From NCBI RefSeq assembly GCF_945957525.1, contig NZ_CAMFLA010000027.1, positions 1 to 51,152 of the forward strand: a stretch of 51,152 nt of DNA. Reading direction: 5' to 3'. Within the stretch, counting starts at the first letter, position 1, and each line of letters begins with the position of its first letter. The notes under the pieces were generated by a model. The model saw only the letters and a list, made by a program, of their open reading frames with translations. It did no database searches and had not been told where the DNA came from. Position numbers and translations under genes: made by a program. Source of the DNA: an uncultured Aquitalea sp. Lineage in GTDB: Bacteria; Pseudomonadota; Gammaproteobacteria; Burkholderiales; Chromobacteriaceae. This document shows positions 177 to 43,379 of the stretch, piece by piece.

Positions 177-192
177 AAGGTTGGCCGAAGGG
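177..192 (+). repeat. Uptake-sequence-like motif copy
   Basis: The bases AAGGTTGGCCGAAGGG match the recurring 16-mer AAGGTTGGCCGAAGGC at 15 of 16 positions. This is the first of 13 copies of the 11-base core in the window, and it stands alone between genes. Confidence 0.6.
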
Positions 193-334
193 GGGACAAG
201 CCGTTTTGACTCTGGTGGCCTGCTGCGCGGGCGGGCCTGTGCGACAGCTTCGCCGTTTCTGCCTGGCAGGCGGGCGGGTGCGGGTCGCCGCCCCTGTATT
301 TATTTGACGCGTTATCAAGTCTAACCGGAAGAAG

Positions 335-1405
335 TCAAATACCCTTCTTTGGTATTTTCACAATAAATTCTACGTGTGCAAATTTTTTTTGGTTTAGTAG
401 AGCATTTTTCGGAGCGCTGTTAACTGTTATTTCTGTTTGATTTGCCTCAGCGCAAAGCTTGGCAATATACAGACCGAATCCACTGCCTTCGGCATCGACG
501 CCAATGTTATTTCCGCGATATCCTTTTTCAAAAATTCGCTCCCTTTCATATTCTTCTATGTGAGGGCTTATTGTTTCAATGCGTATATACACATTTTCAG
601 CATCTTCTGAAATTACTGCTGATATCTCTTGATTGCTAATTGAGTATTTAATAGCATTGTCAAGCAGTGATAGCAAAATTATTTTGAATGAGCTAAATAG
701 GGTTATCTTTGCAAAGCAGTTGCCCTTGATGGCAATTTTCTTTTTTTGCTCTTTTGCCTGGGAATTGTTTAAAATTGTTGCAATTTTTACAAGTAAGCTG
801 TGTATTGTTATTGACCCCTTTTTTTTCTTGGTGGCAGAACTGTTGTGTAAAATCGAGACTAAGTCTAGTGTGTCTTTTAGTAAAGTGGCTGTTTCATATA
901 TTGATTTTTCCAACGCTGAAGATGTGTTATATTTATCTTCAAAAGAGTGCCCTTTGTTGTTGTCAATAAGAGTGTTCGCGAGTCTGGCTAGTTGCCCTGA
1001 CCATTTGTCAATGTCGTGCAGGGAGTCGTATGTGTTTTTTTGAATTAAATCGGATTCTTTGTAGATTTCTTGAATTATATTTTCAATTCGCTCAAATATT
1101 CTATCGATATCATCTGTTGTTCCTCTGAGCTTCTTGTATAATTTTTTTGTCCCAAAGAAGCTATTTTTTCCAGAAGTTAAGTCGACATCGACTGAGCAAA
1201 TAATAATGCTTCTTCCTGAAATTATTCTTTTGTGATAGGAGAGTTTGTGCTTGCAAAATATAACGCCTTCATCCTGACTTTCAATGCTTGTCTTTAAGCA
1301 TTCTTCGGTGCATGGCTTCTGCATGGGGATAGTCATCTCGCCTAGCTTATCATCTATGCAGATTGGCCATTTTGAATTGGTTATATTTGATATTATATAT
1401 TTCAT
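335..1405 (-). CDS. Histidine-kinase-like ATPase (HATPase_c), orphan sensor
   Basis: A 356-residue protein whose C-terminal third is a GHKL/HATPase_c domain. It has an N-box LLDNAIKYS (about 247-255, Asn250), an F-box-like RIFEKGYRG (about 290-298) and a glycine-rich G2 box GSGFGLYIAK (307-316). A histidine in DSLHDIDKW (His130) sits in a helical region where a dimerisation/phosphoacceptor helix would be expected, but the match to HisKA is poor. No membrane segment is evident, so it is probably cytoplasmic. The ATG overlaps the stop of the upstream membrane receiver-like gene by four bases (ATGA), so the two are co-translated and probably partners. Codon use is much more AT-rich than in the nrd genes next door, which suggests horizontal acquisition. 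What it senses cannot be told from sequence. Confidence 0.7.
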   Translation of the reverse strand: MKYIISNITNSKWPICIDDKLGEMTIPMQKPCTEECLKTSIESQDEGVIFCKHKLSYHKRIISGRSIIICSVDVDLTSGKNSFFGTKKLYKKLRGTTDDIDRIFERIENIIQEIYKESDLIQKNTYDSLHDIDKWSGQLARLANTLIDNNKGHSFEDKYNTSSALEKSIYETATLLKDTLDLVSILHNSSATKKKKGSITIHSLLVKIATILNNSQAKEQKKKIAIKGNCFAKITLFSSFKIILLSLLDNAIKYSISNQEISAVISEDAENVYIRIETISPHIEEYERERIFEKGYRGNNIGVDAEGSGFGLYIAKLCAEANQTEITVNSAPKNALLNQKKFAHVEFIVKIPKKGI

Positions 1406-3618: not shown

Positions 3619-3717
3619 GCCTGCCTTCTCCTTGCGTGGATGCTGCTGGCCCGTGGGCCGTGTGTTGCGGTTGGCGGCGCGGCCTGCGGTGTTGGCCGAA
3701 GGCGCGCCCTGTTTGTG

Positions 3718-4101
3718 TCAGTTGGGGTGGTCGTCGTACTGCACGACGCCATACACCCGCCATTCGCCCTGGCTGCGCTTGAGGTGGTAGCCGGTGTGAA
3801 ACCGCCAGGGCTCGGCATCAAGCCGGTGTACGGTCCAGTGCAGTTTCACGTTGGCCACGTCATCGCCAAAGCGCTGGGCTTCGGTAATCAATCCGTCGGC
3901 GCCTGTGGCGCCTTGCGCGCGGTAGTAGGCCATGATGCCGTGCGTGGCCTGCCGCAGCGCTTCGCCATCCTGTTCGCCGTACACGGTGGTTTCGCCGTGG
4001 TGAATGGCGATCAGCGGCATGGTGAACAGCTGGCTGATGCTATCCGCGTCCAGCGCCGAGTAGGCCTGGATATAGCGGTGAAAAAATTCTTGCAGTGTCA
4101 T
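3718..4101 (-). CDS. NTF2-like / SnoaL-type small protein
   Basis: A 127-residue protein with the pattern of the NTF2-like cone fold: an N-terminal helix (LQEFFHRYIQAYSALDADSI), a short PLIAIHHGE segment, then alternating strands ending in GEWRVYGVVQYDD. Members of this superfamily include enzymes and ligand-binding proteins, and no catalytic residues can be assigned. It lies between nrdA and the 88-residue gene on the same strand. A motif copy (GTTGGCCGAAGGC, 3691-3703) sits just beyond its stop codon. The ribosome-binding site before 4101 is weak. Function unknown. Confidence 0.6.
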   Translation of the reverse strand: MTLQEFFHRYIQAYSALDADSISQLFTMPLIAIHHGETTVYGEQDGEALRQATHGIMAYYRAQGATGADGLITEAQRFGDDVANVKLHWTVHRLDAEPWRFHTGYHLKRSQGEWRVYGVVQYDDHPN

Positions 4102-4472
4102 GCGTGTGCTCGCCTGTAGAAGCCCGGGGGCTTGTTCAGTAAGCGGTTGCCGTATCTTGAGCCGGCTGGCCGCTGCGCTTGGTCACACTTCACCCATTCA
4201 GAAACCGGCTGGGGTCAACCGGTTTGAGACTGGGGGTTGGCCGAAGGCTTCGGCCAACCTTGCCGTGCATCAACTGGTCCTGCTTGCTCGCCCTGGTGGG
4301 CTGCACCCCGTCGCCATGCTCCGGGGTGGTCCGGGTTGTTGCTTCGCATCAACCCTTCCTGCTTATTGGCCTTGCTTGCAAGCTTCGCAAGCCCGGCGGG
4401 CTGCACCCCGGTCGCCATGCCCCGGGGTGGTCCGGGTTGTTGCTTCGCATCAACCCTTCCTGCTCGCTTGCC
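4102..4472. other. nrdA 3' spacer with tandem repeats and motif hairpin
   Basis: This 371-base gap downstream of nrdA contains a decayed repeat start (about 4263-4297), two roughly 100-bp tandem units (4298-4497, the second running into the nrdA coding end) and the inverted motif pair at 4235-4259. No convincing gene was found in either strand. Confidence 0.6.
4235..4259. repeat. Inverted pair of the GGTTGGCCGAAG motif
   Basis: The arms GGTTGGCCGAA (4235-4245) and TTCGGCCAACC (4249-4259) are perfect reverse complements around a 3-nt GGC loop, so one motif copy reads on each strand. It lies downstream of nrdA and may form a hairpin, but no T-tract follows on either side. Inverted motif pairs between genes are how uptake sequences commonly occur in Neisseria. 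Confidence 0.75.
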
Positions 4473-4497
4473 TTACTGGCAAGCTTCGCAGTCCGGG
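4298..4497. repeat. Two-unit ~100-bp tandem duplication including the nrdA 3' end
   Basis: The stretch beginning GGGCTGCACCCCG at 4298 reappears at 4398 almost unchanged for about 66 bases (CCGGGGTGGTCCGGGTTGTT and the following CTTCGCATCAACCC are shared). After a more diverged stretch both units end in similar sequence, GCAAGCTTCGCAAGCCCGG against GCAAGCTTCGCAGTCCGGG. In the second unit that ending is the last codons of nrdA. The first unit is therefore a decayed copy of the nrdA C-terminal coding sequence and its downstream DNA. Confidence 0.7.
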
Positions 4498-7346
4498 TTG
4501 TCAATGCTGCAGAACTTCACGTCGGTGGCCGGGGTGTCGTCCACTTCCGGTGCCGCGGCCTGTTCGGCGGCGGCGTTGTAGCCGGCGGACGGGATGTTGC
4601 TGGACACGGCGTTCAGTTCGCCACCCTTGCCGGTGGACTTCTCGGCGCTGGAGGCGGCGAGGGTGCGCAGGTAGTAGGTGGTCTTGATGCCGCGAATCCA
4701 CGCCAGCTTGTACAGGTCGTCCAGCTTCTTGCCGGAAGCGCCGGCCATGTACAGGTTGAGCGACTGCGCCTGGTCGATCCATTTCTGGCGACGGGCGGCG
4801 GCTTCAACCAGCCATTTCGGGTCGATTTCGAAGGCGGTGGCGTAGATGGCTTTCAGATCGGCCGGGATGCGGTCGATGCGGCCCAGGCTGCCGTCGAAGT
4901 ACTTGAGATCGGCCACCATCACTTCGTCCCACAGGCCGGCTTTTTTCAGGTCGCGCACCAGGTATTCGTTGGTGACGGTGAATTCGCCGGACAGGTTGGA
5001 TTTGACGAATAGGTTCTGGAAGGTGGGTTCGATGGACGCCGACACGCCAATGATGTTGGCGATGGTGGCGGTGGGCGCAATCGCCAGCGTGTTGGAGTTG
5101 CGCATGCCGTGCAGCTTGATGCGCTCGCGCAGGGCGTTCCAGTTCATGCGTTCGGTGCGGTCCACTTCCAGATAGCCGCCGCGCTCGGCCGCCAGCAGGT
5201 TGTTGCTGTCGTGCGGCAGGATGCCGCGATCCCACAGGCTGCCCTTGTAGGACGGGTAGCGGCCGCGTTCTTCGGCCAGATCGCAAGAGGCGGAGTAGGC
5301 GTAGAAGGCCACCATTTCCATGGATTCGTCGGCAAATTCCACGGCGGCGTCGGAGGCGTACGGGATGCGCTTGATGTGCAGGCAATCCTGGAAGCCCATG
5401 ATGCCCATGCCCACCGGACGGTGCTTGAGGTTGGAGTTGCGCGCCTTCTTCACCGGGTAGAAGTTGATGTCGATCACGTTGTCCAGCATGCGCAGGGCGA
5501 TGCGGATGGTGCGCTGCAGCTTCTCGGCGTTCAGGCTGCCGTCTTCCTTGAGGTGGGCGGCCAGGTTGACGGAGCCGAGGTTGCACACGGCGATCTCGTT
5601 CTCGTTGGTGTTGAGGGTGATCTCGGTGCAGAGGTTGGAGCTGTGCACCACGCCCATGTGTTGCTGCGGGCTGCGGATGTTGCACGGGTCCTTGAAGGTG
5701 ATCCAGGGATGGCCGGTTTCAAACAGCATGGTCAGCATCTTGCGCCACAGCGACAGGGCCGGGATGCGCTTGTACACGCGCAGCTCGCCGCGCTCGCCCA
5801 TGGCTTCGTATTCCTTGTAGCGCTTCTCGAAGGCGCTGCCGAACAGGTCGTGCAGGTCCGGTGCTTCGGACGGGGAGAACAGGCTCCAGTCCGCGCCTTC
5901 CATCACGCGCTTCATGAATAGGTCCGGAATCCAGTTGGCGGTGTTCATGTCGTGGGTGCGGCGGCGGTCGTCGCCGGTGTTCTTGCGCAGCTCGAGGAAT
6001 TCTTCCACGTCGGCGTGCCAGGTTTCCAGGTAGGCGCAGACCGCGCCCTTGCGCTTGCCGCCCTGGTTGACCGCCACGGCGGTGTCGTTCACTACCTTGA
6101 GGAAGGGGACAATGCCCTGGCTCTTGCCGTTGGTGCCCTTGATGTGGGAGCCCATGGCGCGCACCGGAGTCCAGTCGTTGCCCAGGCCGCCGGCAAACTT
6201 GGACAGCAGGGCGTTTTCCTTCAGGCCTTCGTAGATGCCGTCCAGGTCATCGGCGATGGTGGTCAGGTAGCAGCTGGACAGCTGGCTGCGACGGGTACCG
6301 GAGTTGAACAGCGTGGGGGTGGACGACATGAAGTCGAAGCTGGACAGGATGTTGTAGAACTCGATGGCGCGGGCTTCGCGGTCCACTTCGTTCAGGGCCA
6401 GGCCCATGGCGACGCGCATGTAGAAAGCCTGCGGCATTTCGATGCGGGTGCCGTCGATGTGCAGGAAGTAGCGGTCGAACAGGGTTTGCAGGCCGAGGTA
6501 GCCGAATTTCAGGTCGCGCTTCGGGTCCAGCGCCGCGCCCAGCTTTTTCAGGTCGAACTGGGCGAGGGTTTCATCCAGCAGTTCGGCCTTGATGCCTTTT
6601 TTGATGAATTCCGGGAAGTAGTCGGCGTAGCGCTCGGCCATTTCTTCCTGGCTGAGGGATTCGCCGATGATTTCCAGGCGGATGCTGTCCATCAGCAGGC
6701 GGGCAGTGACATAGTCGTAGGTGGGGTCCTGCTCGATCATAGAGCGAGCGGCCAGAATGGCGGACTTGTTCACTTCGTCTTCCGGCACGCCGTCGTAAAT
6801 GTTCTTCAGCGTTTCGGAGAGGATGGCGTCGATGTCGATATTGGCCAGGCCCTGGCTGGCGGATTCGATGCGGGCGCGCAGACGGGCGATGTCCAGCGGC
6901 TGCTTGCGGCCATCCTTGCGGATGATGTTGATCTGGATCTGGGTGAGGGCTTCGCCGCGGGCGGCGCGCTCTTGCGAGCGCTGTTCGCGGTACAGCACGT
7001 AGGCGCGGGCCACGTCGTGTTCGCCGAAGCGCATCAGCGACAGTTCCACTTGGTCCTGGATGTCTTCAATGTGAATGGCGCCGCCTTCCGGCTTGCGACG
7101 CATCAGGGCGTTGACCACCTGTTCGGTCAGCTGGGCCACCTTGTCGCGGATGCTGGCGGACGTGGCGCCTTGATGCCCCATCACGGCCAGAAAAGCCTTG
7201 GTCATGGCGATGGAGATCTTCACCGGCTCGAAAGCTACCACGGCACCGTTGCGGCGGATGGTCTTGTACAGGCTGAAATCAGCCTGCGGAGCGGCGGCCC
7301 GGCCCAGTTCTGCGGCGGTTTGCCCTTCAAAGGTGGTCAATTGCAT
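4473..7346 (-). CDS. nrdA: Class Ia ribonucleotide reductase alpha subunit
   Basis: The catalytic subunit, 957 residues from the chosen ATG at 7346, which has an AAAGAGGG ribosome-binding site. A longer in-frame ATG at 7511 would add 55 unrelated residues and run through the NrdR-type operator, so it is rejected. The N-terminus appears to carry two ATP-cone modules (one around VKISIAMTKAFLAVMG, a second around RKDGRKQPLDIARLRARI), which explains a length well above the 761 residues of E. coli NrdA. Active-site signatures are present: QLSSCYLTTIADD (first redox cysteine), SNLCTEI (Asn-Cys-Glu of the catalytic site) and AVCNLGSVNL (second redox cysteine). The protein ends in CEACQ, the mobile C-terminal cysteine pair re-reduced by thioredoxin or glutaredoxin. 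Confidence 0.96.
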   Translation of the reverse strand: MQLTTFEGQTAAELGRAAAPQADFSLYKTIRRNGAVVAFEPVKISIAMTKAFLAVMGHQGATSASIRDKVAQLTEQVVNALMRRKPEGGAIHIEDIQDQVELSLMRFGEHDVARAYVLYREQRSQERAARGEALTQIQINIIRKDGRKQPLDIARLRARIESASQGLANIDIDAILSETLKNIYDGVPEDEVNKSAILAARSMIEQDPTYDYVTARLLMDSIRLEIIGESLSQEEMAERYADYFPEFIKKGIKAELLDETLAQFDLKKLGAALDPKRDLKFGYLGLQTLFDRYFLHIDGTRIEMPQAFYMRVAMGLALNEVDREARAIEFYNILSSFDFMSSTPTLFNSGTRRSQLSSCYLTTIADDLDGIYEGLKENALLSKFAGGLGNDWTPVRAMGSHIKGTNGKSQGIVPFLKVVNDTAVAVNQGGKRKGAVCAYLETWHADVEEFLELRKNTGDDRRRTHDMNTANWIPDLFMKRVMEGADWSLFSPSEAPDLHDLFGSAFEKRYKEYEAMGERGELRVYKRIPALSLWRKMLTMLFETGHPWITFKDPCNIRSPQQHMGVVHSSNLCTEITLNTNENEIAVCNLGSVNLAAHLKEDGSLNAEKLQRTIRIALRMLDNVIDINFYPVKKARNSNLKHRPVGMGIMGFQDCLHIKRIPYASDAAVEFADESMEMVAFYAYSASCDLAEERGRYPSYKGSLWDRGILPHDSNNLLAAERGGYLEVDRTERMNWNALRERIKLHGMRNSNTLAIAPTATIANIIGVSASIEPTFQNLFVKSNLSGEFTVTNEYLVRDLKKAGLWDEVMVADLKYFDGSLGRIDRIPADLKAIYATAFEIDPKWLVEAAARRQKWIDQAQSLNLYMAGASGKKLDDLYKLAWIRGIKTTYYLRTLAASSAEKSTGKGGELNAVSSNIPSAGYNAAAEQAAAPEVDDTPATDVKFCSIDNPDCEACQ

Positions 7347-7423
7347 TCGTGCCCTCTTTGGGTGGTTGGTCCCGCCGCTGGGCCGTCGTTTTCCAGCGAG
7401 GCGGCAGGGGCTGTGGACAATTC

Positions 7424-7470
7424 TGTTGAAAAGCTGTGTGTTTGCTGTGGGTAAACACAATATGTACTGT
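7424..7470 (-). promoter_or_regulatory. NrdR-box pair upstream of nrdA
   Basis: ACACAATATGTACTGT (7455-7470) closely fits the NrdR box consensus ACACWATATATWGTGT. A weaker box lies at 7424-7439 (minus strand ACACAGCTTTTCAACA). The centres are 31 bp apart, three helical turns, which is the usual geometry of NrdR operators. The pair is 78-124 bases before the nrdA start codon, so the nrdA-nrdB unit is probably repressed by NrdR. The nrdR gene is not in the window. Confidence 0.8.
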
Positions 7471-7899
7471 TTGTACTGCTCAATGGACCCAAATTCTAGG
7501 GGTGCGAGCACGCTCCGACAAGTCTTGACAGTGTTTTAAAACCTCGAAATCCGCGTCAGGCAAGGCTTGGCGGGGTGTAAGATTTTTTTGGCATTTTGTT
7601 GGGGGAGCGTGGCGAAAATGCTAATAGCTTGATTATCAAGCTTGTGGGGGCGGGTGTGTTGCGCAGCACAAGATGTGGTGGAAATACGTAGTTGCACACA
7701 TGCCACGCCGTCGGCATGAATTGTTTGTGACGCGTCATGAAACATGTTGTGGGTCGGTTTGCGGCTTGCACGCAGGATTCATGACAGGCGCGGGGCGGCG
7801 TTGGCTGGGCTGGGGCGGGCGGACTAGGGGGTAAGGCGCATTGATCGGGCCGACTTGTCGCCCTGGCGAGCAGGGTGGGTAAGACGGCCCGGTGCTGGC
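7471..7899. other. Intergenic region upstream of nrdA
   Basis: No supportable gene is seen. The part nearest nrdA should contain its promoter, but several weak -35/-10 combinations fit and I do not choose one. A palindrome AGCTTGA-TTA-TCAAGCT lies at 7626-7642 without a clear T-tract. The stretch also lies downstream of pgeF, and no obvious terminator for that gene is visible. Confidence 0.4.
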
Positions 7900-8649
7900 T
7901 CAGTCTTGCAACCAGATCAGGCTTGCCATGCGGCCGGTGACGCGGTCGCGGCGGTAGGAGTAGAAGCGGGGACGGTCGATAACGGTGCAGAAATCTCCGC
8001 CGTACACTTCGGTCACGCCCAGGGCCTGCAGGCGCTGGCGCGCCAGCAGGTAGATGTCGGCCAGGTATTTGCCGTCAGCGATGGGGCTGAAGGCGGCGTC
8101 TGCCGCCGGGTCTGCCGCCATGAAGGCGTCGCGTACTTCGCCGCCCACTTCGAAAGCGTCCGGGCCGATGGCGGGGCCCAGCCAGGCCATCAGGGTGGCC
8201 GGCTCGGCGCCCATGCTTTCCACGGTGGCTTCGATAACGCCATCGCACAGGCCGCGCCAACCTGCATGGGCCGCGCCAACCGTTGTGCCTTCGCGGTTGG
8301 TCAGCAACACCGGCAGGCAGTCGGCTGTCATTACCACGCACACCGCTCCCGGCGCGCGCGCTACGCTGGCGTCGGCGTCGACCAGGATTTCGCCGATGTC
8401 GGCGGCATCAACCACATGCGTGCCGTGCACCTGATTGAGCCAGGCCGGCTCGGCGGGCAGCAACTGGCGCAGCTGCTCGCGATTGGCCGCTACGTGGGCT
8501 GGGTCGTCCCCCACGTGGGTGCCAAGATTGAAGCCGGCATACGGGCCCTGGCTGGCACCGCCCTGACGGGTGGTGATCAGGGTGCGTACGCGAGCCGGTG
8601 CGGGCCAGTCGGCGCTCAGCCATGCCGGCTGGGCATTACTCTCGGACAT
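7900..8649 (-). CDS. pgeF: Peptidoglycan editing factor PgeF / YfiH laccase-domain protein
   Basis: A 249-residue member of the YfiH (DUF152, multicopper polyphenol oxidase-like) family. Relatives act on purine nucleosides and help clear wrongly made UDP-MurNAc-L-Ser. The conserved metal-ligand set is visible: His75 in NQVHGTH, Cys111 in MTADCLP and His128 in GAAHAGWRG. Its ATG overlaps the 3' end of rluD by 14 bases, so the two are translationally coupled, a common rluD-pgeF arrangement. There is no signal peptide; it acts in the cytoplasm. Length and motifs are normal for the family. Confidence 0.92.
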   Translation of the reverse strand: MSESNAQPAWLSADWPAPARVRTLITTRQGGASQGPYAGFNLGTHVGDDPAHVAANREQLRQLLPAEPAWLNQVHGTHVVDAADIGEILVDADASVARAPGAVCVVMTADCLPVLLTNREGTTVGAAHAGWRGLCDGVIEATVESMGAEPATLMAWLGPAIGPDAFEVGGEVRDAFMAADPAADAAFSPIADGKYLADIYLLARQRLQALGVTEVYGGDFCTVIDRPRFYSYRRDRVTGRMASLIWLQD

Positions 8650-9730
8650 AGATCACCTCGATGTCGCCATCGTCTTCGTCGTCCCAGTCTTCGTCATCGT
8701 CTTCTTCATTGTGCGTCGGGGCGGCTTCCATGAATTCGCCTTCTTCGCCGCGCAGGGTTTCCAGCAGGCGGCGGAAATCGTCCGGCAGTGGCGCTTGCCA
8801 GCTGCGTTCCTCACCGGTGGCGGGGTGAACCAGCGCCAGCTTGTAGGCGTGCAAGGCCTGGCGGCCCAGCGCTTTCACCGCGTCGGCGACCGGTTCGTCC
8901 ATCTTGTGGCGCGGATTGCCGTACAGTGCGTCGCCGGCCAGCGGATGGCGGGCTTCTTTCATGTGTACGCGAATCTGATGGGTGCGACCGGTTTCCAGCT
9001 TGCATTCGATGAGGGAGTGGCTGTCGAAGCGTTCCAGCACGCGCACGTGGGTGATGGCCGTCTTGCCGCCAAATTTCAGCACCGCCATTTTGAGGCGGTT
9101 GTGCGGGTCGCGGCCAATCAGTGTATTGATGACGCCGTCGAAGGGTACGACGCCGTCGGCAATGGCGCGGTAGATGCGCTTGACAGTGCGGGCCTGCAGC
9201 TGGCGCACCAGCTCGGTTTGCGCTGGCACGGTTTTGGCCACCACCATCAGTCCGCTTGTGTCCTTGTCCAGCCGGTGCACGATGCCGGCGCGGGGCACCT
9301 GGGCCAGTTGCGGGCAAAGATGCAGCAGGCCGTTGAGCAGGGTGCCGGACCAGTTGCCGGACGCCGGGTGCACGACCAAGCCCGCCGGTTTGTTGATCAC
9401 CAGGATGTGTTCGTCCTCGAAAACGATGGGGATGTCCATCGGCTCCGGATGAAAAGCCATTTCTTCATTGGACTGAACAATGGTAACTTCCAGCTTTTCG
9501 CCGCCCAGCAGCTTGGTTTTGGGTGCGACAGTCTTGCCGTCTACCAGTACCGCGCCGTCCTTGATCCATTGGGTCAGGCGGCTGCGGGAGTAATCGGGGA
9601 GGAGTTTCGCCAACGCGGCGTCCAGTCGCTCGCCGCAAAGCGAGAGGGGGACGTCGATCTGTTGTCGAGCGGGTACCTCGTTTTCGGAGATATCGCTATA
9701 ATCCTCCGAGTCAAAGTAAGGATCGGTCAT
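8636..9730 (-). CDS. rluD: 23S rRNA pseudouridine synthase RluD
   Basis: A 364-residue pseudouridine synthase of the RluA/RluD family, expected to modify helix 69 of 23S rRNA. An N-terminal S4 RNA-binding domain (DVPLSLCGERLDAALAKLLP onward) is followed by the catalytic domain with HRLDKDTSGL; Asp155 is the catalytic aspartate. The start chosen is the ATG at 9730. A GTG at 9787 would add 19 residues lying inside bamD. The start codon shares the bases CATG with the divergent bamD start. The C-terminus ends in a very acidic tail (NEEDDDEDWDDEDDGD) beyond the family core, which is unusual for an RNA-binding enzyme. pgeF follows with a 14-base overlap. Confidence 0.93.
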   Translation of the reverse strand: MTDPYFDSEDYSDISENEVPARQQIDVPLSLCGERLDAALAKLLPDYSRSRLTQWIKDGAVLVDGKTVAPKTKLLGGEKLEVTIVQSNEEMAFHPEPMDIPIVFEDEHILVINKPAGLVVHPASGNWSGTLLNGLLHLCPQLAQVPRAGIVHRLDKDTSGLMVVAKTVPAQTELVRQLQARTVKRIYRAIADGVVPFDGVINTLIGRDPHNRLKMAVLKFGGKTAITHVRVLERFDSHSLIECKLETGRTHQIRVHMKEARHPLAGDALYGNPRHKMDEPVADAVKALGRQALHAYKLALVHPATGEERSWQAPLPDDFRRLLETLRGEEGEFMEAAPTHNEEDDDEDWDDEDDGDIEVIYVRE

Positions 9731-10520
9731 GAAAAGATACGTTGTGGCAGCAATGTTGGTGATGGGGCTTGCGGGTTGCGCAACCACGGAAACCTACGAC
9801 GAAACGCGCGGATGGACCGTGGAAAAGCTCTACTCGGAAGCCCGGGATGAGTTGAATAGCGGTAATTATACCCGCGCTGTCAAGCTGTACGAAACGCTGC
9901 AAGCCCGTTACCCCTACGGTCGCTTTGCGCAGCAGGCCGAAATGGATCTGGCTTACACCCACTACAAGGATAACGAGCCCGAGCTAGCTATTGCGGCGGC
10001 CGATCGCTTCATCAAGCTGCACCCGGCGCATCCCAACGTCGACTACATGTACTACCTGAAGGGCTTGGTCTATTACAACGACGACCAGGGCCTGCTGTCC
10101 AAGTGGGCCGGCCAGGACATGAGCGAGCGCGACCCGAAGGCCGCGCGCGAATCCTTCCTCGCTTTTCGCGAGCTGACCACCCGTTTCCCCGCCAGTAAAT
10201 ATAGCCCGGATGCGCTGGCCAAGATGAACCGTCTGGTGGATGCGCTGGGCGGCAGCGAAATGCACATCGCCCGCTACTACATGAAGCGCGGCGCCTGGTT
10301 GGCCGCGGCCAACCGCGCGCAGGGCGTGGTGAAGGACTATTCCAACACCAAGTACCCGGAAGAAGCGCTGGCGGTGATGGTGGTGGCTTACCAGAAACTG
10401 GACATGCCCAAGCTGAGCGACGACGCCAAGCGCGTGCTGGTACTGAATTATCCTAACAGCCAGTATCTGCAAACACCGTGGCAAGTGAAAGAAATGCCCT
10501 GGTGGAAACTCTGGAAGTAA
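9729..10520 (+). CDS. bamD: Outer-membrane assembly lipoprotein BamD (ComL)
   Basis: A 263-residue essential lipoprotein of the beta-barrel assembly (BAM) complex, acting on the periplasmic face of the outer membrane. The signal peptide ends in the lipobox LAGC with Cys17 as the lipidated residue. TPR-type helical repeats follow, including AVKLYETLQARYPYGRFAQQ and ELAIAAADRFIKLHP. In Neisseria the homologue is ComL, named for a competence defect. An AAGGA ribosome-binding site (within rluD) precedes the ATG. The gene is divergent to rluD and ends at the hairpin at 10557-10584. Confidence 0.95.
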   Translation: MKRYVVAAMLVMGLAGCATTETYDETRGWTVEKLYSEARDELNSGNYTRAVKLYETLQARYPYGRFAQQAEMDLAYTHYKDNEPELAIAAADRFIKLHPAHPNVDYMYYLKGLVYYNDDQGLLSKWAGQDMSERDPKAARESFLAFRELTTRFPASKYSPDALAKMNRLVDALGGSEMHIARYYMKRGAWLAAANRAQGVVKDYSNTKYPEEALAVMVVAYQKLDMPKLSDDAKRVLVLNYPNSQYLQTPWQVKEMPWWKLWK

Positions 10521-10556
10521 GCTCCCTTGCTCGGCCATTCCGGCCGGGCAGGCAAG

Positions 10557-10584
10557 AAAAAAGGCCGCGGAAGCGGCCTTTTTT
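10557..10584. terminator. Bidirectional terminator between bamD and glnB
   Basis: The stem AAAAAAGGCCGC / GCGGCCTTTTTT closes a GGAA loop. Because the arms themselves carry A6 and T6, it can end both the plus-strand bamD and minus-strand PII transcripts, which converge here. Confidence 0.9.
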
Positions 10585-10605
10585 CTTGGGTGGTCAGGTG
10601 CCGGC

Positions 10606-11013
<408 letters not shown>

Positions 11014-11028
11014 CTACCGTGAATGGCC

Positions 11029-11057
11029 TTAAATTGCAGGCCGTTTTGCTGTATTAT
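11029..11057 (+). promoter_or_regulatory. Probable purL promoter
   Basis: TTAAAT (11029-11034) and TATTAT (11052-11057) are separated by 17 bp and lie about 35 bases before the purL ATG. The -10 is good and the -35 moderate. No riboswitch-like fold is apparent in the short leader. Confidence 0.45.
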
Positions 11058-33603: not shown

Positions 33604-34577
33604 TTTGCTGCCCGCTCCATCGCTTGATTGGCCAAGTGCCGGCCGCTGAGCCAGGCGCCTTCCACTTTGCCGCCATGCAGCCAGTCTCCGCACAGGCCAA
33701 TACCCAGCTCCGAGCTCCAGGCGCTACCGGTGTCGGTGGCATTGCAATCCGCATAGCGCCAGCGATGCGCACTGAAGACGGCGGCGGGAGGGCCGCCGAG
33801 TTGGCCGAAGGCCGCCAGCAGAGCGTGCGCCACGGTGTCCGCATCATCTTCAAGATGTTCGGCGCTCCATGCTGCATTGGCTTGCAATACCCAGCATTCG
33901 AGCCCGCTGCGACCCGGTTTGCTGTTGTTGCGGGCCAGCCAGCGCAGTGGGCCCGCATTGACGAAGGCAGCATCGAAGCCGAGTGAGGCCGGTGCTGCCG
34001 GCTGCGCCATGACCGTCCAGCATGGCAACATGCTGTGGGCTGCGGCCAGCGCGGACAGCGCTGGACAGGCTTCCTTCAGCAGGGCGGCTGCTTGCGGCGA
34101 AGGCGTCGCCACCAACACTTGCGCATAGAGGCCCGGCAGCAAGCCGTGCTCCGCGCTGGCCAGTCGCCAGCCACCGGTTTCACGGGTCAAGGCCTTGATG
34201 GTGTGGGCGGTGTGAACCTCCAGTCCGGTCGCCAGGGCTTTGGCCGGTGCGGACATGCCCGGCACGCCGACATAGCGCAGCGGGGCGTCATGTGCGGGGA
34301 CGCGGCTGTCGCCCAGCACAGCAGGGAGGGTCTGCCAGACGGCGATGGCACCGGCGTCCAGCCAGTGCAGCACTTGCCGCTGGAAGTCCGGGTGGCGGGC
34401 GGTAAAGTACTGCGCGCCGTGATCGGCCTGCCAGTCCGGGCCGCGACGCGTGCACAGGCGTCCGCCCAGCCCGCGGCTTTTATCGAACACGACGACATGA
34501 TGGCCGGCGTCGCGCAGGGCGGCGGCACAGGAAAGGCCGGCGATGCCGGCGCCGATAATGGCGATGGATTTGCTCAT
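33600..34577 (-). CDS. NAD(P)/FAD-dependent oxidoreductase, renalase-like
   Basis: A 325-residue flavoprotein beginning with a Rossmann FAD motif (IAIIGAGIAGLSCAAALRDAGHHVVVFDKS), then GLGGRLCTRR and DHGAQYFTAR, which mark the renalase-like branch of the amine-oxidase fold. The C-terminal GLCGDWLHGGKVEGAWLSGRHLA closes the FAD site. It is coupled to the photolyase gene by a four-base overlap and follows the TIGR02450 gene by 26 bases. Families of this type recur beside photolyases, but the substrate is not known. One motif copy lies in antisense (33800-33812). Confidence 0.8.
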   Translation of the reverse strand: MSKSIAIIGAGIAGLSCAAALRDAGHHVVVFDKSRGLGGRLCTRRGPDWQADHGAQYFTARHPDFQRQVLHWLDAGAIAVWQTLPAVLGDSRVPAHDAPLRYVGVPGMSAPAKALATGLEVHTAHTIKALTRETGGWRLASAEHGLLPGLYAQVLVATPSPQAAALLKEACPALSALAAAHSMLPCWTVMAQPAAPASLGFDAAFVNAGPLRWLARNNSKPGRSGLECWVLQANAAWSAEHLEDDADTVAHALLAAFGQLGGPPAAVFSAHRWRYADCNATDTGSAWSSELGIGLCGDWLHGGKVEGAWLSGRHLANQAMERAAK

Positions 34578-35397: not shown

Positions 35398-36927
35398 TTA
35401 CAGGGTTTCCAGCCGTTGCAGGATGTTTGCGGCGCTGTCGGCCAGGGCGCTTTGTTCTGCTTCGCTCATCTGCGCCAGCTGTTTGTAGACCAGCCCCAGT
35501 CGAGGGTTGCCCTCCAGCAGGTCGCGCTGACGACGGAAGAAGTCCCAATACAGGGCATTGAACGGACAAGCGTCCGCGCCATGACGCGCCTCGCGTCGGT
35601 AGCGGCAGTCGCCGCAGTAATCGCTCATGCGGTGCAGGTAGGCATGGCCGGAAACATAAGGCTTGCTGGCCAGCAGGCCGCCATCGGCAAACTGACTCAT
35701 GCCCAGGGTATTGGGCAGTTCCACCCATTCGAAGGCATCGATGTACACGCCCAGATACCATTCATGCAGCGCCTGCGGCGACAAACCGGCCAGCAGGGAG
35801 AAATTGCCGATCACCATCAGCCGCTGGATATGGTGGGCGTAGGCATCGCTCAGTGATTGGCCTATGGCGTGAGCCAGGCAGCGCATGCCGGTGCGGCCAT
35901 GCCAGAACCAGCCGGGCAGGGGGCGGTGATGCCGGAGCACATTGCTTTGCGCGTAGTCCGGCATGCGCGCCCAGTACACCCCGCGCACGTATTCGCGCCA
36001 GCCGAGAATCTGGCGCACAAAGCCTTCCACGGCCGCCAGCGGTGCGCTGCCGGCCCGCCAGGCTTGCTCGGCGGCGGTCACCACCTCGTGCGGCGACAGC
36101 ATCTTGGTGTTGAGCGCGAAAGAGAGCAGCGAGTGGAACAGTCGCGGCTGCGTGGTGTGCATGGCGTCCTGATAGTCGCCAAACCGGGGCAGCGCCTGCT
36201 GGATGAAATCCGCGAGCTGGCTTAGCGCTTCCTCTCGGTTCAAGGGCCAGCGCAGCGCATCGGCGCAAGGTTGGCCGAAGGCGTCGACGCCGGCGGCCTG
36301 CAGGGTTTGCCACAGCGCGCGGTGATCGTGACTGGGGCGCATATCGGCCGGTGGCGGCGGGTCGCCTCGCCACGGCTTGCGGTTGTCCTGGTCGAAATTC
36401 CATTTGCCGCCCGCCGGCCTGCCGCCGTTCTCCAGCAACACGCCGTGCAGCTTGCGCATCTGCCGGTAGAAGGTTTCCATGCGCCACTGCTGTTTGCCGG
36501 CAAACAACTGGCCGGCCTCGTGGCGGCGGGTATAGAAATGCTCACTGTCCACCGCCTTGCAGGGAATGGTCTGTCGCGCCGCCCAGGCGCGCAGCTGCTG
36601 ATCCAGCCGCCACTCGTCCGGCAGCTGCCAGCAAAACGCGCGGGCTTGATAGTGACGCAGCAGCGCATCCAGATTGTCTTCCAGCGAGCCGCGATTAGAT
36701 GGGTGATCAATCGCCACATAACGCAGCCGGTGGCCTGCGGCTTTCAGCTTGCCGGCAAAGTCGCGCATGGCCGCCAGCACCGCCAACAGCTTTTGTGCGT
36801 GATGCAGCACGTAGCCGGTTTCCTGACGCAGTTCCAGCATCAGGTAAACCACGTCGTCGCGCTGTTCGGCAAACCAGCTGTGCCGCGGGTTGAGCTGGTC
36901 GCCCAGTATCAGCCGCAGCTCGGTCAT
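35398..36927 (-). CDS. FeS-type (6-4) photolyase / bacterial cryptochrome (PhrB/CryB family)
   Basis: A 509-residue member of the iron-sulfur bacterial cryptochrome/photolyase (FeS-BCP) family, whose Agrobacterium member PhrB repairs (6-4) photoproducts. From the ATG at 36927 the four expected cluster cysteines fall at 350 (GMRCLAH), 438 and 441 (YCGDC) and 454 (DACPF), the same numbers I recall for PhrB. That supports both the start and an intact [4Fe-4S] site. The N-terminal MTELRLILGDQLNPRHSWF is typical. The ATG overlaps the CRY-DASH stop by four bases. A full motif copy lies in antisense at 36267-36282. Confidence 0.92.
   Translation of the reverse strand: MTELRLILGDQLNPRHSWFAEQRDDVVYLMLELRQETGYVLHHAQKLLAVLAAMRDFAGKLKAAGHRLRYVAIDHPSNRGSLEDNLDALLRHYQARAFCWQLPDEWRLDQQLRAWAARQTIPCKAVDSEHFYTRRHEAGQLFAGKQQWRMETFYRQMRKLHGVLLENGGRPAGGKWNFDQDNRKPWRGDPPPPADMRPSHDHRALWQTLQAAGVDAFGQPCADALRWPLNREEALSQLADFIQQALPRFGDYQDAMHTTQPRLFHSLLSFALNTKMLSPHEVVTAAEQAWRAGSAPLAAVEGFVRQILGWREYVRGVYWARMPDYAQSNVLRHHRPLPGWFWHGRTGMRCLAHAIGQSLSDAYAHHIQRLMVIGNFSLLAGLSPQALHEWYLGVYIDAFEWVELPNTLGMSQFADGGLLASKPYVSGHAYLHRMSDYCGDCRYRREARHGADACPFNALYWDFFRRQRDLLEGNPRLGLVYKQLAQMSEAEQSALADSAANILQRLETL
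36267..36282 (+). repeat. Uptake-sequence-like motif inside the FeS photolyase gene
   Basis: A full AAGGTTGGCCGAAGGC copy on the plus strand, antisense to the coding strand of the FeS-type photolyase. It is the fourth single 16-of-16 or near-perfect copy outside hairpins. Confidence 0.65.
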
Positions 36928-38201
36928 GCAGCGCTCCACAAGGCGCGGTAAGCGCCGTCGGCATCGTATTCGGCAGCCTGCTTGTCCGGGTTGAAGCGTC
37001 GGCCGCCGCGCGGGTCGGTACCCAGGCCAGCGATGTAGAGCCAGTTGCCGTGATTGAGGCTGCAATCGTAGTCGATCAACGCGGATTCGAACCAGGCCGC
37101 ACCGGCTCGCCAATCACATTGCAGATCATGGATCAGATAACTGGCCACGATCTGGCGCATGCGATTGCCCAGATAAGCGGTGGCGGCCAGCTCGCGCATG
37201 CCGGCATCCACCAGCGCCTGCCCGGTATCGCCGCGCCGCCAGCGCCGGAAGGCCTCCTCGTCGTGCGGTGGCGGTGCTTTGCCCGGCAGCCCGCCGGCGC
37301 GGTACAGCTGTTTGCCGTATTTGAGTTGCAACAGCTTGAAATAGTCTCGCCACAGCAACTCAAACCAGAGCCAGTCACTGCTGGCGCTGGCACCGTGTAC
37401 GGCTTCGAATGCTCTGAGCTGTTGCAATACCAGGCGTGGCGATAGCGCGCCGCAGGCAAACCAGGGCGACAGCTTGCTGGAATAGTCGATGCCGCTCAGT
37501 CCGTTGCGGGTGGTCTTGTAGCTGTGGGGTAGCCCGCGCGCCAGATATTGCGCCAGGTGCGCCATGGCAGCGTCCTCGCCGCCAAGGAAGCCGGTACGGG
37601 GAAAGGGGAAACTGGAGCGTGGGTCAGCCTGCTCGGTAGGGCTGTCGAGTCTGGCGCTTGCCATGGCCTCGGCCTGCTCTGGTAGGGGCGGCAGGTTGGG
37701 TGTCGGCAGGGGCGGCGCAGGGGTTGCTCCTGCGCGCGCGAGGGTTTGCCGAAAGGTGGTGAACACATCGGGCAGATCCTGTGGCGCCCACGGCAAGGCA
37801 TCCGGCGCAAACAGTGTTGCTTGCCAATGGCTGCGGACAGCCCAGCCCTGGGCGCGCAAGGCCTGCAGGTCGGCGGCTTCTTCCGGCGTGGCGATGTCTT
37901 CGCAGTAGATGGCATCGGCATTGGCGGCGGCCGCCAACGCCGGCAGGGCCTGCGCCATCGAGCCTTGGCGCACGATCAGCCGGCTGCCCTGTCGACGCAG
38001 GGCGGCGTCCAATGCAATGGCGGCGCTGGCGCGAAATGCGCTCCGGCGCGTGCCGATGCGGGCAAAGCCCCAGGCGGTGTCGGCCGGCGTTGGCGTCAGC
38101 CACACAGGCAGCAGGCGGTCGGCCGACGCGCAGGCCGCCTGCAAGGCCGGGTTGTCATGCAGGCGCAGATCGTCGCGGAAACAGTAGAGCAGGGTGCGCA
38201 T
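36924..38201 (-). CDS. CRY-DASH-type cryptochrome/photolyase
   Basis: A 425-residue flavoprotein of the DASH cryptochrome branch, which repairs dimers mainly in single-stranded DNA and may also signal. The antenna domain opens MRTLLYCFRDDLRLHDNPAL. The DASH-like middle has TTRNGLSGIDYSSKLSPWFACGALSPR, and the flavin site is followed by NRMRQIVASYLIHDLQCDWR and SLNHGNWLYIAGLGTDPRGGRRFNP. It begins four bases after the DUF2256 gene and overlaps the FeS photolyase gene by four bases. Three photolyase homologues in one operon is unusual. Confidence 0.88.
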   Translation of the reverse strand: MRTLLYCFRDDLRLHDNPALQAACASADRLLPVWLTPTPADTAWGFARIGTRRSAFRASAAIALDAALRRQGSRLIVRQGSMAQALPALAAAANADAIYCEDIATPEEAADLQALRAQGWAVRSHWQATLFAPDALPWAPQDLPDVFTTFRQTLARAGATPAPPLPTPNLPPLPEQAEAMASARLDSPTEQADPRSSFPFPRTGFLGGEDAAMAHLAQYLARGLPHSYKTTRNGLSGIDYSSKLSPWFACGALSPRLVLQQLRAFEAVHGASASSDWLWFELLWRDYFKLLQLKYGKQLYRAGGLPGKAPPPHDEEAFRRWRRGDTGQALVDAGMRELAATAYLGNRMRQIVASYLIHDLQCDWRAGAAWFESALIDYDCSLNHGNWLYIAGLGTDPRGGRRFNPDKQAAEYDADGAYRALWSAA

Positions 38202-38855: not shown

Positions 38856-39565
38856 AGCGTAAACCTGCGAGGAAAGTGGATTTCAAAACAGCCGCGCTCC
38901 ATTCCGCGCACGATGCTGGCGGCGGCTTGGTCGGGGCTGATGATGCCTGGCATGGCGAAGTCATTGAGCGCGGTGAGGCGGGTGGCGACAAAACCGGGGT
39001 TGATCAGGTACACGCTCAGACCGTGGCGTTTCAGTTCCGCATGCAGCAGTTCGGCCAGGTTGATCAGCGCCGCCTTGCTTGGCCCGTAAACGCTGGCGCC
39101 GGGCAGACCGATGTAGCCGGCCACGCTGGCCACCAGGGCAATACCGCCGGCGCGGCGCGCCATCAAATCCGGCAGCATGGTTTCCAGGCCGAAGTACACG
39201 CCGGCCAGATTGGTGTCCAGGGTTTGCCGAACCTGCTCATGCCGCAGTTGCCAGCTTTGCTCGGGCCGGTAGTCGGCGGCGCAGAAGACAATGAGATCCG
39301 GTAGACGATGCAGCTCGCTCAGTTGCGTCCAGCATTGGCGCCAGGAGTCGGGGCTGGTGACATCGTGCGGCAGGATGAGCGCGCGGGGATGAGCGTCGGC
39401 CACCTGCATGAGCGAGGTTTGCCGGCGGGCGGACAGCACTACCTCGGCGCCCTTGTCGAGCAGGTGTCTGGCCAGCGCGGCGCCAATGCCGCTGGAGGCG
39501 CCGACAAGCCATACCCGCTGGCCGGGCCAGTCGCGCAGGGGCGGGTTGAGAGGCGGGAAGGGCAT
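38783..39565 (-). CDS. Short-chain dehydrogenase/reductase
   Basis: A 260-residue SDR. The NAD(P) motif is VGASSGIGAALARHL, and the catalytic Tyr-Lys pair is in SVYGPSKAAL with the preceding active Ser in VASVAGYIG. The start at 39565 has a strong AAGGAGT ribosome-binding site; a longer frame to 39601 is rejected. It follows the DUF3833 gene by four bases and overlaps the NTF2-like gene. The substrate is unknown; similar SDRs sit in other CFA/DUF1365 clusters. Confidence 0.85.
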   Translation of the reverse strand: MPFPPLNPPLRDWPGQRVWLVGASSGIGAALARHLLDKGAEVVLSARRQTSLMQVADAHPRALILPHDVTSPDSWRQCWTQLSELHRLPDLIVFCAADYRPEQSWQLRHEQVRQTLDTNLAGVYFGLETMLPDLMARRAGGIALVASVAGYIGLPGASVYGPSKAALINLAELLHAELKRHGLSVYLINPGFVATRLTALNDFAMPGIISPDQAAASIVRGMERGCFEIHFPRRFTLWIKLIAMLPYRLRLPLLRHLART

Positions 39566-41302: not shown

Positions 41303-42075
41303 GGTTGGTACTCCTGCCCGTGAGTCAGACTGTTGGAAGGGGGGTGAGGTTTGCCGAAGAAAGGCACTTTCTTCAGCCACAGGCGCAGCGCTTGCCAGTG
41401 AATCCGGACAATGATGGAGACGGTCAGCAAGGGCTGGGCGAGGAGGGCGGCGCGCGCGGCGGCCGGTGTCAGCGGGCTCAGGGCGCCGGATACGCTGGTA
41501 TTGAGCAGCAGCCCGTTCTCATCGTGGTAATCGATGCGCATCAGCATACGGTCCGGTTTTTCCGCCAGCCGGAAGGCGTAATGCCCTTCCACCCGGCAAA
41601 AGGGGGAGACATGCAAGCGCTTGCGGCAGGTAAGCGCTTGCCCGTTTCGTATGGGGCCGCCTTGTCGATTGGCCAGCAAGTAGGCGTGGTGCTCGCCAAA
41701 GGTGTTGTTGACATCGGCGAGTATGGCCACCAGCTGACCGGTGGCATCATGGCAATACCAGAAGCTGACCGGGTTGAAAGCGTAGCCGAACAGCCGGGGA
41801 AAGGTGTGCAGCCACACCTCGCCATCGTACGGCAGGCCGGCTTCTGCCAACTGCCGGCGAATCCAGGGCAGCAGCGGGCTGCCGTCGCGCGGGCCATAGT
41901 CGCGCGTTTGCACAGAAACAGGCCGTCGACGGTTGACGCCAAACCAGGCATTGCCGATGTCGTCCAGCGCCGACAGGCGCAAGCGCACGGCAAACACCGG
42001 GTAAAGGAAACGGTGGCGGGCGGGACGCAGGCGCTGATGCATCACCAGGCCCTTAACGAGGTAGGCGTCGGCCAT
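41299..42075 (-). CDS. DUF1365 protein
   Basis: A 258-residue DUF1365 protein: VKGLVMHQRLRPARHRFLYPVFAVRLRL, then the strongly conserved LHTFPRLFGYAFNPVSFWYC and VNNTFGEHHAYLL, and VSPFCRVEGHYAFRL. It sits between the FAD amine oxidase (one-base overlap) and the CFA-like gene (four-base overlap), the fixed order of this family in many bacteria. Function not established; lipid modification is inferred from context. Confidence 0.92.
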   Translation of the reverse strand: MADAYLVKGLVMHQRLRPARHRFLYPVFAVRLRLSALDDIGNAWFGVNRRRPVSVQTRDYGPRDGSPLLPWIRRQLAEAGLPYDGEVWLHTFPRLFGYAFNPVSFWYCHDATGQLVAILADVNNTFGEHHAYLLANRQGGPIRNGQALTCRKRLHVSPFCRVEGHYAFRLAEKPDRMLMRIDYHDENGLLLNTSVSGALSPLTPAAARAALLAQPLLTVSIIVRIHWQALRLWLKKVPFFGKPHPPSNSLTHGQEYQP

Positions 42076-43379
42076 CAGTCCAGTCTCGCCCAGGCCGGCA
42101 GCGCGACAAAGTCTTGCGCCACCCGCAATGCCGACTTCAGGCCATCCTCATGAAAGCCGTAGCCTGTCCAGGCGCCGGCGAACCAGGCGCGGCGCTTGCC
42201 TTGCAAGCTGGGCAGCCGGGCCTGCGCCTGGATGGCGGCTTGGTCAAACAAGGGATGTTCATAAATGAAGCGCGCGAACTCCAGCGAGCGCTCCGGCTCG
42301 CGTACCGGGTTCAGGGTTACTATCACCGGGGATGAAACGGGCAGCGGCTGCAAGGTATTGAGTAGGTAGCTGACGCAGACGGCGCGTTGCGACGACTGTC
42401 CACTGTCAGCCAGGAAGTTCCACGCCGACCACACTTTGCGTCGCCTAGGCAGCAAGGCCGGGTCGCCATGCAGGATGGCGGTATTGGGCTGATAGCGCAC
42501 CGGCGCCAGCACCGCGCGCTCTTCGGCGCTGGCGTCCTCCAGCATGGCGAGGGTTTGCGGCGCGTGGGTGGCAAAGATCACGCTGTCAAAGCGCTCCTCG
42601 CCGTGGCGACTGTTTACGATGACGCCCTGGTCATCTCGTCGCACCGAGAGCACTGGCGAGGACAGGCGCAGATCGCGTATGCGCTCCAGCAGTTTTGTTA
42701 CGTACTGGCGCGCGCCACCCGGGACCGTAAACCAGCGGGGACGCTGACTTACCTGCAACAAGCCGTGATTCATGCAGAAACGCAGGAAAGTGGCTGCCGG
42801 GAAATCCAAAATCTCACTACTGGGGCTGGACCAGATGGCAGCGGCCATCGGCACCAGATAGTGATCGCGGAAACGTTGGCCGAAGCCCTCCAACCGCAGC
42901 AACTCTCCCAGCGTCAAGCCCAGAGCGGAAGCGCTTTCCAGCAAGCGTGGCGCTGCTTTGTTGAACCGCAGGATGTCGTACAGCATGCCGTGGAAGCGCG
43001 GGGACAGCAGTTTGGCCCGTTGCGCGAACACGGTGTCGAGATTACTGCCGGCCCATTCATCCCGCCCTTGATCCAGCGATACGCTGAAGGACATCTCGGT
43101 GCTGCAGGACGGCACGCCCAGTGCGGCGAACAGGGCGATCAGGTTGGGGTAGGTGCGTTCATTGAATACCAGAAAACCGGTATCAACCGACAGGTTGCGG
43201 CCCTCCAGTTTCAGATCCACCGTGTTGGTATGGCCGCCGGCGTAATCTGCCGCCTCGAACAAGGTGACGTCATGGCTGCCGGACAGCAGCCAGGCGCTGC
43301 CAAGACCGGCGATGCCCGCGCCTATAACGGCAACGCGCTGACGTTGTACTGGATTAGCTTTCACCTGGGCTCCCGACAT
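42075..43379 (-). CDS. FAD-dependent amine-oxidase-type oxidoreductase
   Basis: A 434-residue flavoprotein, first gene of the 13-gene operon. The FAD motif is VAVIGAGIAGLGSAWLLSGSHDVTLFEA, followed by GGHTNTVDL and a C-terminal FAGAWTGYGFHEDGLKSALRVA closure. Homologues encoded with DUF1365 and CFA-type enzymes are implicated in fatty-acid desaturation or oxidation. I chose the ATG at 43379; another at 43436 has a somewhat better GGATTGGAT upstream and would add 19 residues, so the start is uncertain. An antisense motif copy lies at 42875-42887. Confidence 0.85.
   Translation of the reverse strand: MSGAQVKANPVQRQRVAVIGAGIAGLGSAWLLSGSHDVTLFEAADYAGGHTNTVDLKLEGRNLSVDTGFLVFNERTYPNLIALFAALGVPSCSTEMSFSVSLDQGRDEWAGSNLDTVFAQRAKLLSPRFHGMLYDILRFNKAAPRLLESASALGLTLGELLRLEGFGQRFRDHYLVPMAAAIWSSPSSEILDFPAATFLRFCMNHGLLQVSQRPRWFTVPGGARQYVTKLLERIRDLRLSSPVLSVRRDDQGVIVNSRHGEERFDSVIFATHAPQTLAMLEDASAEERAVLAPVRYQPNTAILHGDPALLPRRRKVWSAWNFLADSGQSSQRAVCVSYLLNTLQPLPVSSPVIVTLNPVREPERSLEFARFIYEHPLFDQAAIQAQARLPSLQGKRRAWFAGAWTGYGFHEDGLKSALRVAQDFVALPAWARLD

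Follow-up and report, generated by a model that had tools for sequence, protein, structure and literature searches.

A short repeated word in Chromobacteriaceae genomes that probably forms a new dialect group of the DNA uptake sequence

The 11-mer GTTGGCCGAAG recurs along a 51,152-nt stretch of DNA from an uncultured Aquitalea sp. (the window, which is the whole stretch analysed, C27:1-51152 of source genome G000, an assembly of 4,045,770 bases in 35 contigs). It belongs to a word with the working consensus AGGTT(G/T)GCCGAA(G), which is abundant in G000 and in several other genera of the family Chromobacteriaceae. Very probably, this word represents a new dialect group of the DNA uptake sequence (DUS), present in a second family and propagated through transformation by type IV pili. 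Its abundance, sharpness, distribution and dialects are observed, as are the codon override in one gene, ComP and ComEC, and the association with a ComP loop; the uptake preference, the receptor and the drive are inferred. In the mechanism we propose, one of the minor pilins in the type IV pilus (the ComP orthologue is the likeliest) would preferentially bind extracellular DNA that bears the word, and pilus retraction would pull the bound DNA in, after which it would pass through ComEC and recombine. Biased uptake of tagged alleles would then spread and maintain the word on both strands, and recent acquisitions would stay without it.

G000 contains 1,069 exact copies of GTTGGCCGAAG (520 + 549 by strand) against 5 (1 + 4) of the reversed word, and 449 copies (225 + 224) of a second form, GTTTGCCGAAG, against 3 (1 + 2) of its reversed control. 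Words were ranked and their placement was scored in a 451-kb sample of G000. Among words with at least 15 copies in this sample, the top 10-mer occurs 154 times where 1.75 copies are expected, the second is the overlapping TTGGCCGAAG, and the third is the second form as GTTTGCCGAA (77 versus 1.8). The motif thus ranks first among 10-mers, a check that an earlier note on this DNA, made from the letters of the window, had proposed. The word is also sharp. In a substitution scan the consensus stood at 204 times expectation and single changes at no more than 15 times, the exceptions below the consensus being T at position 4 (80 times) and A or C at position 11 (31 and 44 times). Just upstream, A at -2 and G at -1 are more weakly favoured, and past the following G the flanks hold no more than about 0.3 bit per position.

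This sharpness bears on the idea that the word is a relic, a former uptake sequence of ancestors that is slowly decaying in the species of G000. Nine congeners have lost the motif or never had it, and the ComP of G000 has an extra Cys that is otherwise present only in G084, both of which a relic could accommodate. One-mismatch forms are nearly absent, however, which indicates that the word is being kept exact. The GTTT form is, moreover, abundant in G000 only (449 copies versus 1 to 26 in the other 60 family genomes), and recent spread is therefore suggested. We regard a relic as improbable. Congeners hold 13 to 25 copies of the GTTT form, somewhat above reversed controls (0 to 4), and this slight surplus may be a remnant or an effect of composition.

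Copies are spread over the genome in the manner of a DUS, on both strands, evenly, and in both genes and intergenic DNA. Genes contain 180 of the 231 sampled copies, 3 more sit at gene boundaries and 48 are intergenic (21% versus 18% non-coding, with genes called by a simple codon-usage script that gave a coding fraction of 0.82 and missed some genes). All six frame-and-sense classes are populated by the intragenic copies, and strands are balanced both in the sample (117 + and 114 -) and on the 353-kb contig C1 (46 + and 48 -), counted without orientation by replication direction. Spacing is more even than random (gap coefficient of variation, 0.73 versus 0.94), and none of 1,000 simulations was as even. 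Copies number 8 to 14 in 19 of 20 stretches, the other being L011 (C4:1-20000), which holds a single copy (P = 0.005 after multiplication by 20). L011 is a 20-kb prophage stretch in which 10 of 10 scanned proteins match phage families, eight of them lysis or head-and-packaging proteins (terminase, portal, head protease, major head protein and others) and two of unknown function. Scarcity in acquired DNA is thus seen in this one prophage stretch and in two islands of the window described below, and gaps in the motif could serve for island mapping in G000.

Selection acting on RNA or protein (terminators, a repetitive extragenic palindromic [REP] or miniature inverted-repeat transposable [MITE] element, or a recurrent peptide) would also multiply a short word. 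Inverted pairs of the motif do fold as hairpins, and some frames are favoured by intragenic copies. Yet inverted pairs no more than 60 bases apart number only 5 in the sample (10 of 231 copies), copies occupy six frames in both senses, and flanks past the 12-mer and its following G carry little information. A search of the 231 sampled copies for a longer repeated unit or for a hairpin in most copies found neither. The earlier note had said that it would be undermined by a count of only a few dozen copies, by confinement to intergenic hairpins or by membership of a REP/MITE unit; we found 1,069 copies in the genome, and in the sample most copies are intragenic and have flanks of little information. 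Together with purL, where the motif overrides residues that are otherwise common, these results contradict an RNA- or protein-level cause for most copies and leave it very improbable.

The purL comparison, which concerns a single gene, included 37 family genomes (without G018) and 2 outsiders. At column 973, L-A-S-A-N, with GTTGGCCGAAG on the opposite strand, is found in 3 of 3 Pseudogulbenkiania and L-A-A-A-N in 8 of 8 Vogesella, 7 of which have GTTGGCCGCAG; N is missing at this position from the other 26 family genomes and from both outsiders. At column 1186, all 8 Vogesella read A-A-N-V with GTTGGCCGCA, whereas 23 of 29 others read H-G-R. At columns 973 and 1186, then, the word of the local dialect overwrites the protein. 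A third site, column 419, is weaker evidence. There, L-A-S-A-N coincides with GTTGGCCGAAG in G000 and G014, and L-D-A-A-N with GTTGGCCGC followed by A (six genomes) or G (two) in 8 of 8 Vogesella, but A-N is common to all, and among the seven congeners examined, none of which has the motif at this site, two hold the 8-base core GTTGGCCG by codon choice. A loose motif pattern also matched motif-free genomes at columns 741, 855, 977 and 1291.

The distribution of the word was followed in two surveys, the first of 61 genomes (G000, 36 others of its family and 24 from one other family each) and the second of 61 genomes of the Chromobacteriaceae. Genera are numbered here, with g1 the genus of G000, g2 taken to be Pseudogulbenkiania after one metagenome-assembled genome, g5 Vogesella, and g3 including 'Neisseriaceae bacterium JH1-16'. 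In the first survey the exact 11-mer is enriched in G000, g2, g3, g6 and g10, weak in g4 (34 and 39 copies), and at background in nine g1 congeners (2 to 10 copies), in g5, g7, g8 and g9, and in the 24 other families. In the second survey, the core AGGTTGGCCG is rich (135 to 1,267 copies) in 23 of 61 genomes, namely G000, both g4, both g3, g6, g10, 3 of 3 g2 and 13 of 13 g5, and the remaining 38 hold 5 to 50 copies. In a sample of 300 genomes from the order, of which 9 belong to the same family, the other 291 hold 0 to 64 core copies, which is background; the reversed word is an imperfect baseline in that sample, as large genomes can exceed it several-fold (64 versus 11). The earlier note had placed the motif in a non-Neisseriaceae member of the Neisseriales. 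This stands, as the motif-bearing Vogesella and Pseudogulbenkiania are Chromobacteriaceae, listed under Neisseriales at NCBI. One amendment is that nine congeners of the species of G000 are without the motif.

Dialects were sampled in 16 of the 61 family genomes, 8 motif-bearing and 8 motif-free. The dinucleotide that follows GTTGGCCG sorts the 8 motif-bearing genomes into three groups with exclusive endings: AA in G000 (154 copies; AG 4, CA 0), G010, G019, G011, G014 and G018; AG in G021 of genus g4 (53; AA 3, CA 0); and CA in G013 of the genus Vogesella (47; AA 0, AG 0). The 8 motif-free genomes hold 0 to 3 of each ending in samples of 40 to 100 kb each, in which a thinly spread word could be missed. 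Top 10-mers reach z-scores of 7 to 10 in motif-free samples versus 13 to 102 in motif-bearing ones, and in motif-free G001 (z 9.7) and G030 (z 15.4) they are mostly or wholly one local tandem repeat.

A word used in recombination or chromosome maintenance inside the cell, in the manner of Chi or the FtsK-orienting polar sequences (KOPS), would likewise act at the level of DNA and be abundant, and richness in one family only would suit it. The strands are balanced, though, as counted on contig C1 and in the sample, and the word is absent from nine congeners and from whole genera, is depleted in the prophage and shifts between dialects. Conserved RecBCD or FtsK words are unlike this in the last three respects. 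We consider such a function unlikely, and uptake by transformation accounts better for the pattern.

The history of the word was examined on a PurL tree of 49 of the 61 family genomes (12 were without a fetched or intact purL, including G018, whose frame is broken) and three outsiders that failed to group on a single side of the tree. The seven congeners included form the sister group of G000 with a support of 100, and the motif must have changed state four times or more. Under the root as drawn, the earliest branches are g4, Vogesella and Pseudogulbenkiania, all of them motif-bearing; this root is unsure because an Eikenella metagenome-assembled genome falls beside g4. The tree can be explained by loss of the motif in g7, g8, g9 and the remaining members of g1, and gain in G000 is another possibility.

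The candidate receptor is encoded at G000:C9:75150-75602, where it closes a row that follows polA and has FimT-, PilV-, PilW- and PilX-like frames (our own reading, made without a family search). The best PDB matches of the profile of its pilin clade, A2, are three ComP structures (1.4e-19 to 1.7e-15), and the G000 protein alone finds the same three entries (2NBA, 2M3K and 5HZ7) over the soluble domain at expectation (E) values of 2e-10 to 2.7e-10. ComEC is also present in G000 (342.7 bits versus a cut-off of 190). The best match of the ComP profile is at or below 7e-25 in 57 of 61 family genomes and only 1e-15 to 1e-17 in four g9 genomes, which are motif-free. E values alone do not prove orthology, because paralogues reach 2e-33; on a quick tree of few columns, however, 52 of 52 fetched best matches form one clade apart from 18 other pilins, with a support of 92 with G018 and 97 without it. 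Two Pfam families were set aside as markers. PF16732 (ComP_DUS) scores 41.9 bits versus a cut-off of 27.3 but also matches other pilins, with hits in 56 of 61 relatives searched, and PF18223 is PilJ_C. In C. violaceum, Frye et al. describe a BLAST search that found no ComP (PMC3630211).

The ComP alignment covers 52 of the 61 genomes, leaving out four g9 genomes without an orthologue and G036, G062, G072, G073 and G076, which were not fetched. Rows G010 and G019 were trimmed of extra upstream non-pilin letters before the Cys analysis and clade tree. In the beta1-beta2 loop, which aligns to the loop of Neisseria ComP that contacts the DUS, N-[TAV]-D is present in 22 of the 23 genomes with the motif and in 0 of the 29 without it. 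A plain Fisher test gives 9e-14, and on the PurL tree the association reduces to 2-3 independent contrasts, all concordant. The only Cys residues common to all 52 proteins are a C-terminal pair about 9 residues apart, with none at the beta1 position; further Cys occur in 14 rows, in the N-terminal helix, at one helix position (G000 and G084) or beside the pair (G033). As a side observation, two ComP/PilE-like pilins are adjacent at G018:C3:1518684-1519633, and the ComP-like one is the least sure member of the ComP clade.

Several results weigh against an uptake sequence read by ComP. By best profile match, the ComP orthologue is present in 23 of 23 motif-bearing genomes, but another 34 have it without the motif; its presence is therefore no predictor of the motif by itself and is necessary for it at most. 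In Neisseria, ComP has a C76-C125 bond and a DD region that binds DNA, as set out in the text of Berry et al. (2016; PMC4906244). A DD region with two disulfides (four Cys) is absent from the 52 aligned orthologues, and both the C76-C125 bond and the DD region are judged missing here because only the C-terminal Cys pair is common and none lies at beta1; likeness to Neisseria ComP is thus one of sequence orthology over the soluble domain. G018, in which the motif is abundant and N-x-D absent, breaks the loop association, and with 2-3 contrasts and a pattern picked after viewing the alignment that association cannot reach significance. Other PilE-like pilins could also act as receptors. Frame use is very uneven, with 59 of 116 intragenic G-form copies in one frame, which we take to reflect what proteins tolerate. 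The dialects here lack the combination of CTG at +6 to +8 and A+10 that the text of Frye et al. gives for all eight known DUS dialects (PMC3630211), and the word is for this reason not filed as a Neisseriaceae dialect. Finally, the literature that we read gives no uptake or binding data for Chromobacteriaceae.

The ComP without a DD region and its presence in motif-free genomes lend some weight to an uptake sequence whose receptor is another minor pilin, such as FimT, a PilE paralogue or a member of a second pilin row. That row, at G000:C12:15941-19599 (L018), has by our own reading PilE-, FimT-, PilW- and PilV-like frames and a 601-aa PilX-like frame, and its first gene is common to g2, 5 of 13 Vogesella, G021 and g9. 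Matches to the row are strong in motif-bearing 3 of 3 g2, 5 of 13 Vogesella, G021 and G000. Yet g9 (1e-42 to 1e-54), which is free of the motif, also matches strongly and g7, likewise motif-free, to an intermediate degree, whereas motif-bearing G011, G020, G014, G018 and G012 match weakly (1e-13 to 1e-18). Its profile, A1, matches PilE-type pilins and none of the three ComP PDB entries at E values of 0.01 or less. With a profile that matches PilE and a distribution that does not follow the motif, the C12 row was dropped as a candidate receptor. The ComP loop that contacts the DUS in Neisseria does, on the other hand, track the motif. Overall, a receptor other than ComP seems a lesser possibility, and we keep ComP as the most likely reader of the word. 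A history that we offer tentatively is that sequence-tagged transformation predates the split of Neisseriaceae and Chromobacteriaceae, whose last common ancestor would have had a ComP reading an AGG-type 12-mer; the Chromobacteriaceae may have kept it with a CCG core and a DD-less ComP that reads mainly via the beta1-beta2 loop (N-x-D), and g7, g8, g9 and the rest of g1 may have lost it with decay of the loop or loss of ComP.

Within the window, GTTGGCCGAAG has 13 exact copies versus a mean of 0.06 and a maximum of 1 in 100 shuffles, and the 16-mer AAGGTTGGCCGAAGGC has 15 sites with no more than 3 mismatches versus 0.79 expected. All 13 copies reported in the earlier note were recovered where it had placed them, but its inventory had overlooked the second form GTTTGCCGAA, whose 12 additional copies bring the total to 25. 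Single exact copies of GTTGGCCGAAG lie on the plus strand at 180-190, 3691-3701, 21172-21182 (in the trpD-trpG interval), 24322-24332, 30322-30332, 33800-33810, 36270-36280 and 42875-42885, and one lies on the minus strand inside purL at 11618-11628, where orthologues were compared. Exact copies of GTTTGCCGAA are at 25406-25415, 26357-26366, 27647-27656, 29436-29445, 37744-37753, 39222-39231 and 41349-41358 on the plus strand and at 16008-16017, 24732-24741, 26454-26463, 32843-32852 and 36865-36874 on the minus strand. The remaining GTTGGCCGAAG copies form two inverted pairs. The pair at 17382-17414 (minus 17382-17392, plus 17404-17414) lies between convergent genes and makes a terminator-like 19-bp stem with an A run and a T run; the two strands fold at -34.8 and -36.4 kcal/mol (z -7.2 and -8.3). 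The pair at 4236-4258 (plus 4236-4246, minus 4248-4258) makes a hairpin with a weaker fold (-24.3 kcal/mol; z -2.8). The earlier claim of inverted pairs, one of them a bidirectional terminator, therefore holds for the pairs and for the folding of 17382-17414 on both strands, whereas a mechanical terminator scan of 4100-17700 returned 15 sites versus 13.5 in shuffles, and that pair was not among them.

The earlier note had also described the motif as missing from 335-2178 and 44966-51152, and this proved correct for both forms. Because only about 4.1 copies are expected there (P(0) = 0.017), these motif-free islands are weak evidence alone. The first, 335-2178, has a G+C content of 0.36 versus 0.61 in the genome sample and a histidine-kinase-like frame at 335-1405. 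A 1,169-aa frame with filamentous haemagglutinin-type repeats occupies 45677-49186, in a motif-free stretch of lower G+C (0.535). The window also has a DASH-type cryptochrome gene (36924-38201) and, at 32065-33693, another photolyase-like frame. Scans for Rfam families and tRNAs returned no matches there.

With three dialects, several apparent losses and a simpler ComP, a related word without CTG in a second family (23 of 61 species) would provide natural experiments on the joint change of a DNA word and its pilin receptor. Natural competence is predicted in genera such as Vogesella and Pseudogulbenkiania, and the word added to donor DNA may offer a practical handle. The partial text of a report on Vogesella indigofera describes manipulation by conjugation and, in that part, does not mention competence. 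Frye et al. (2013) state that no obvious DUS was seen in Pseudogulbenkiania sp. NH8B, Lutiella, Laribacter and two Chromobacterium, give top 10-mers in Table S1D, and describe the DUS as a Neisseriaceae trait that arose after the split from C. violaceum (PMC3630211). Among the matches listed in our searches of the open literature, those on Chromobacteriaceae include no DUS report, although Table S1D may list the word unlabelled, and those for the literal 10-mer concern, to judge by titles and the opening lines of abstracts, unrelated subjects.

Compared with known systems, the word is DUS-like in its effect on the genome and differs in two defining features, the CTG core and a ComP with a DD region. 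It shares with the DUS described by Frye et al. its place as the top over-represented 10-12-mer, hundreds to thousands of copies, presence on both strands, occasional inverted pairs and clade dialects (PMC3630211), and to these our data add scarcity in acquired DNA. The earlier note held that the sequence differs from the Neisseriaceae DUS, which is true of CCG in place of CTG; however, AGGTTGGCCGAA, aligned in register, agrees with AG-simDUS AGGCTGCCTGAA and AG-mucDUS AGGTCGTCTGAA at 9 of its 12 bases and with AG-DUS at 8. A random 12-mer of G000 would match any of the seven dialects compared (of eight known, wadDUS being left out) this well with a probability of 0.006 in register and 0.011 when shifts are allowed. 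In DUS numbering, every dialect here retains C+6 and G+8 and has C for T+7; A+10 is retained in the AA and CA dialects and is G in g4, and C at +9 in Vogesella is likewise found in king3DUS of the Neisseriaceae. Common descent of the word and the Neisseriaceae DUS is suggested. The change at T+7 falls within the CTG whose base changes nearly abolish transformation in N. meningitidis, as the text of Frye et al. relates (PMC3630211). The same source describes two co-resident forms one base apart in Simonsiella (simDUS and kingDUS), like GTTG and GTTT here, with the variable base at +3 there and +4 here. The uptake signal sequence of the Pasteurellaceae is the same type of genome tagging with an unrelated word, and its receptor is predicted to be another minor pilin (PMC12616744).

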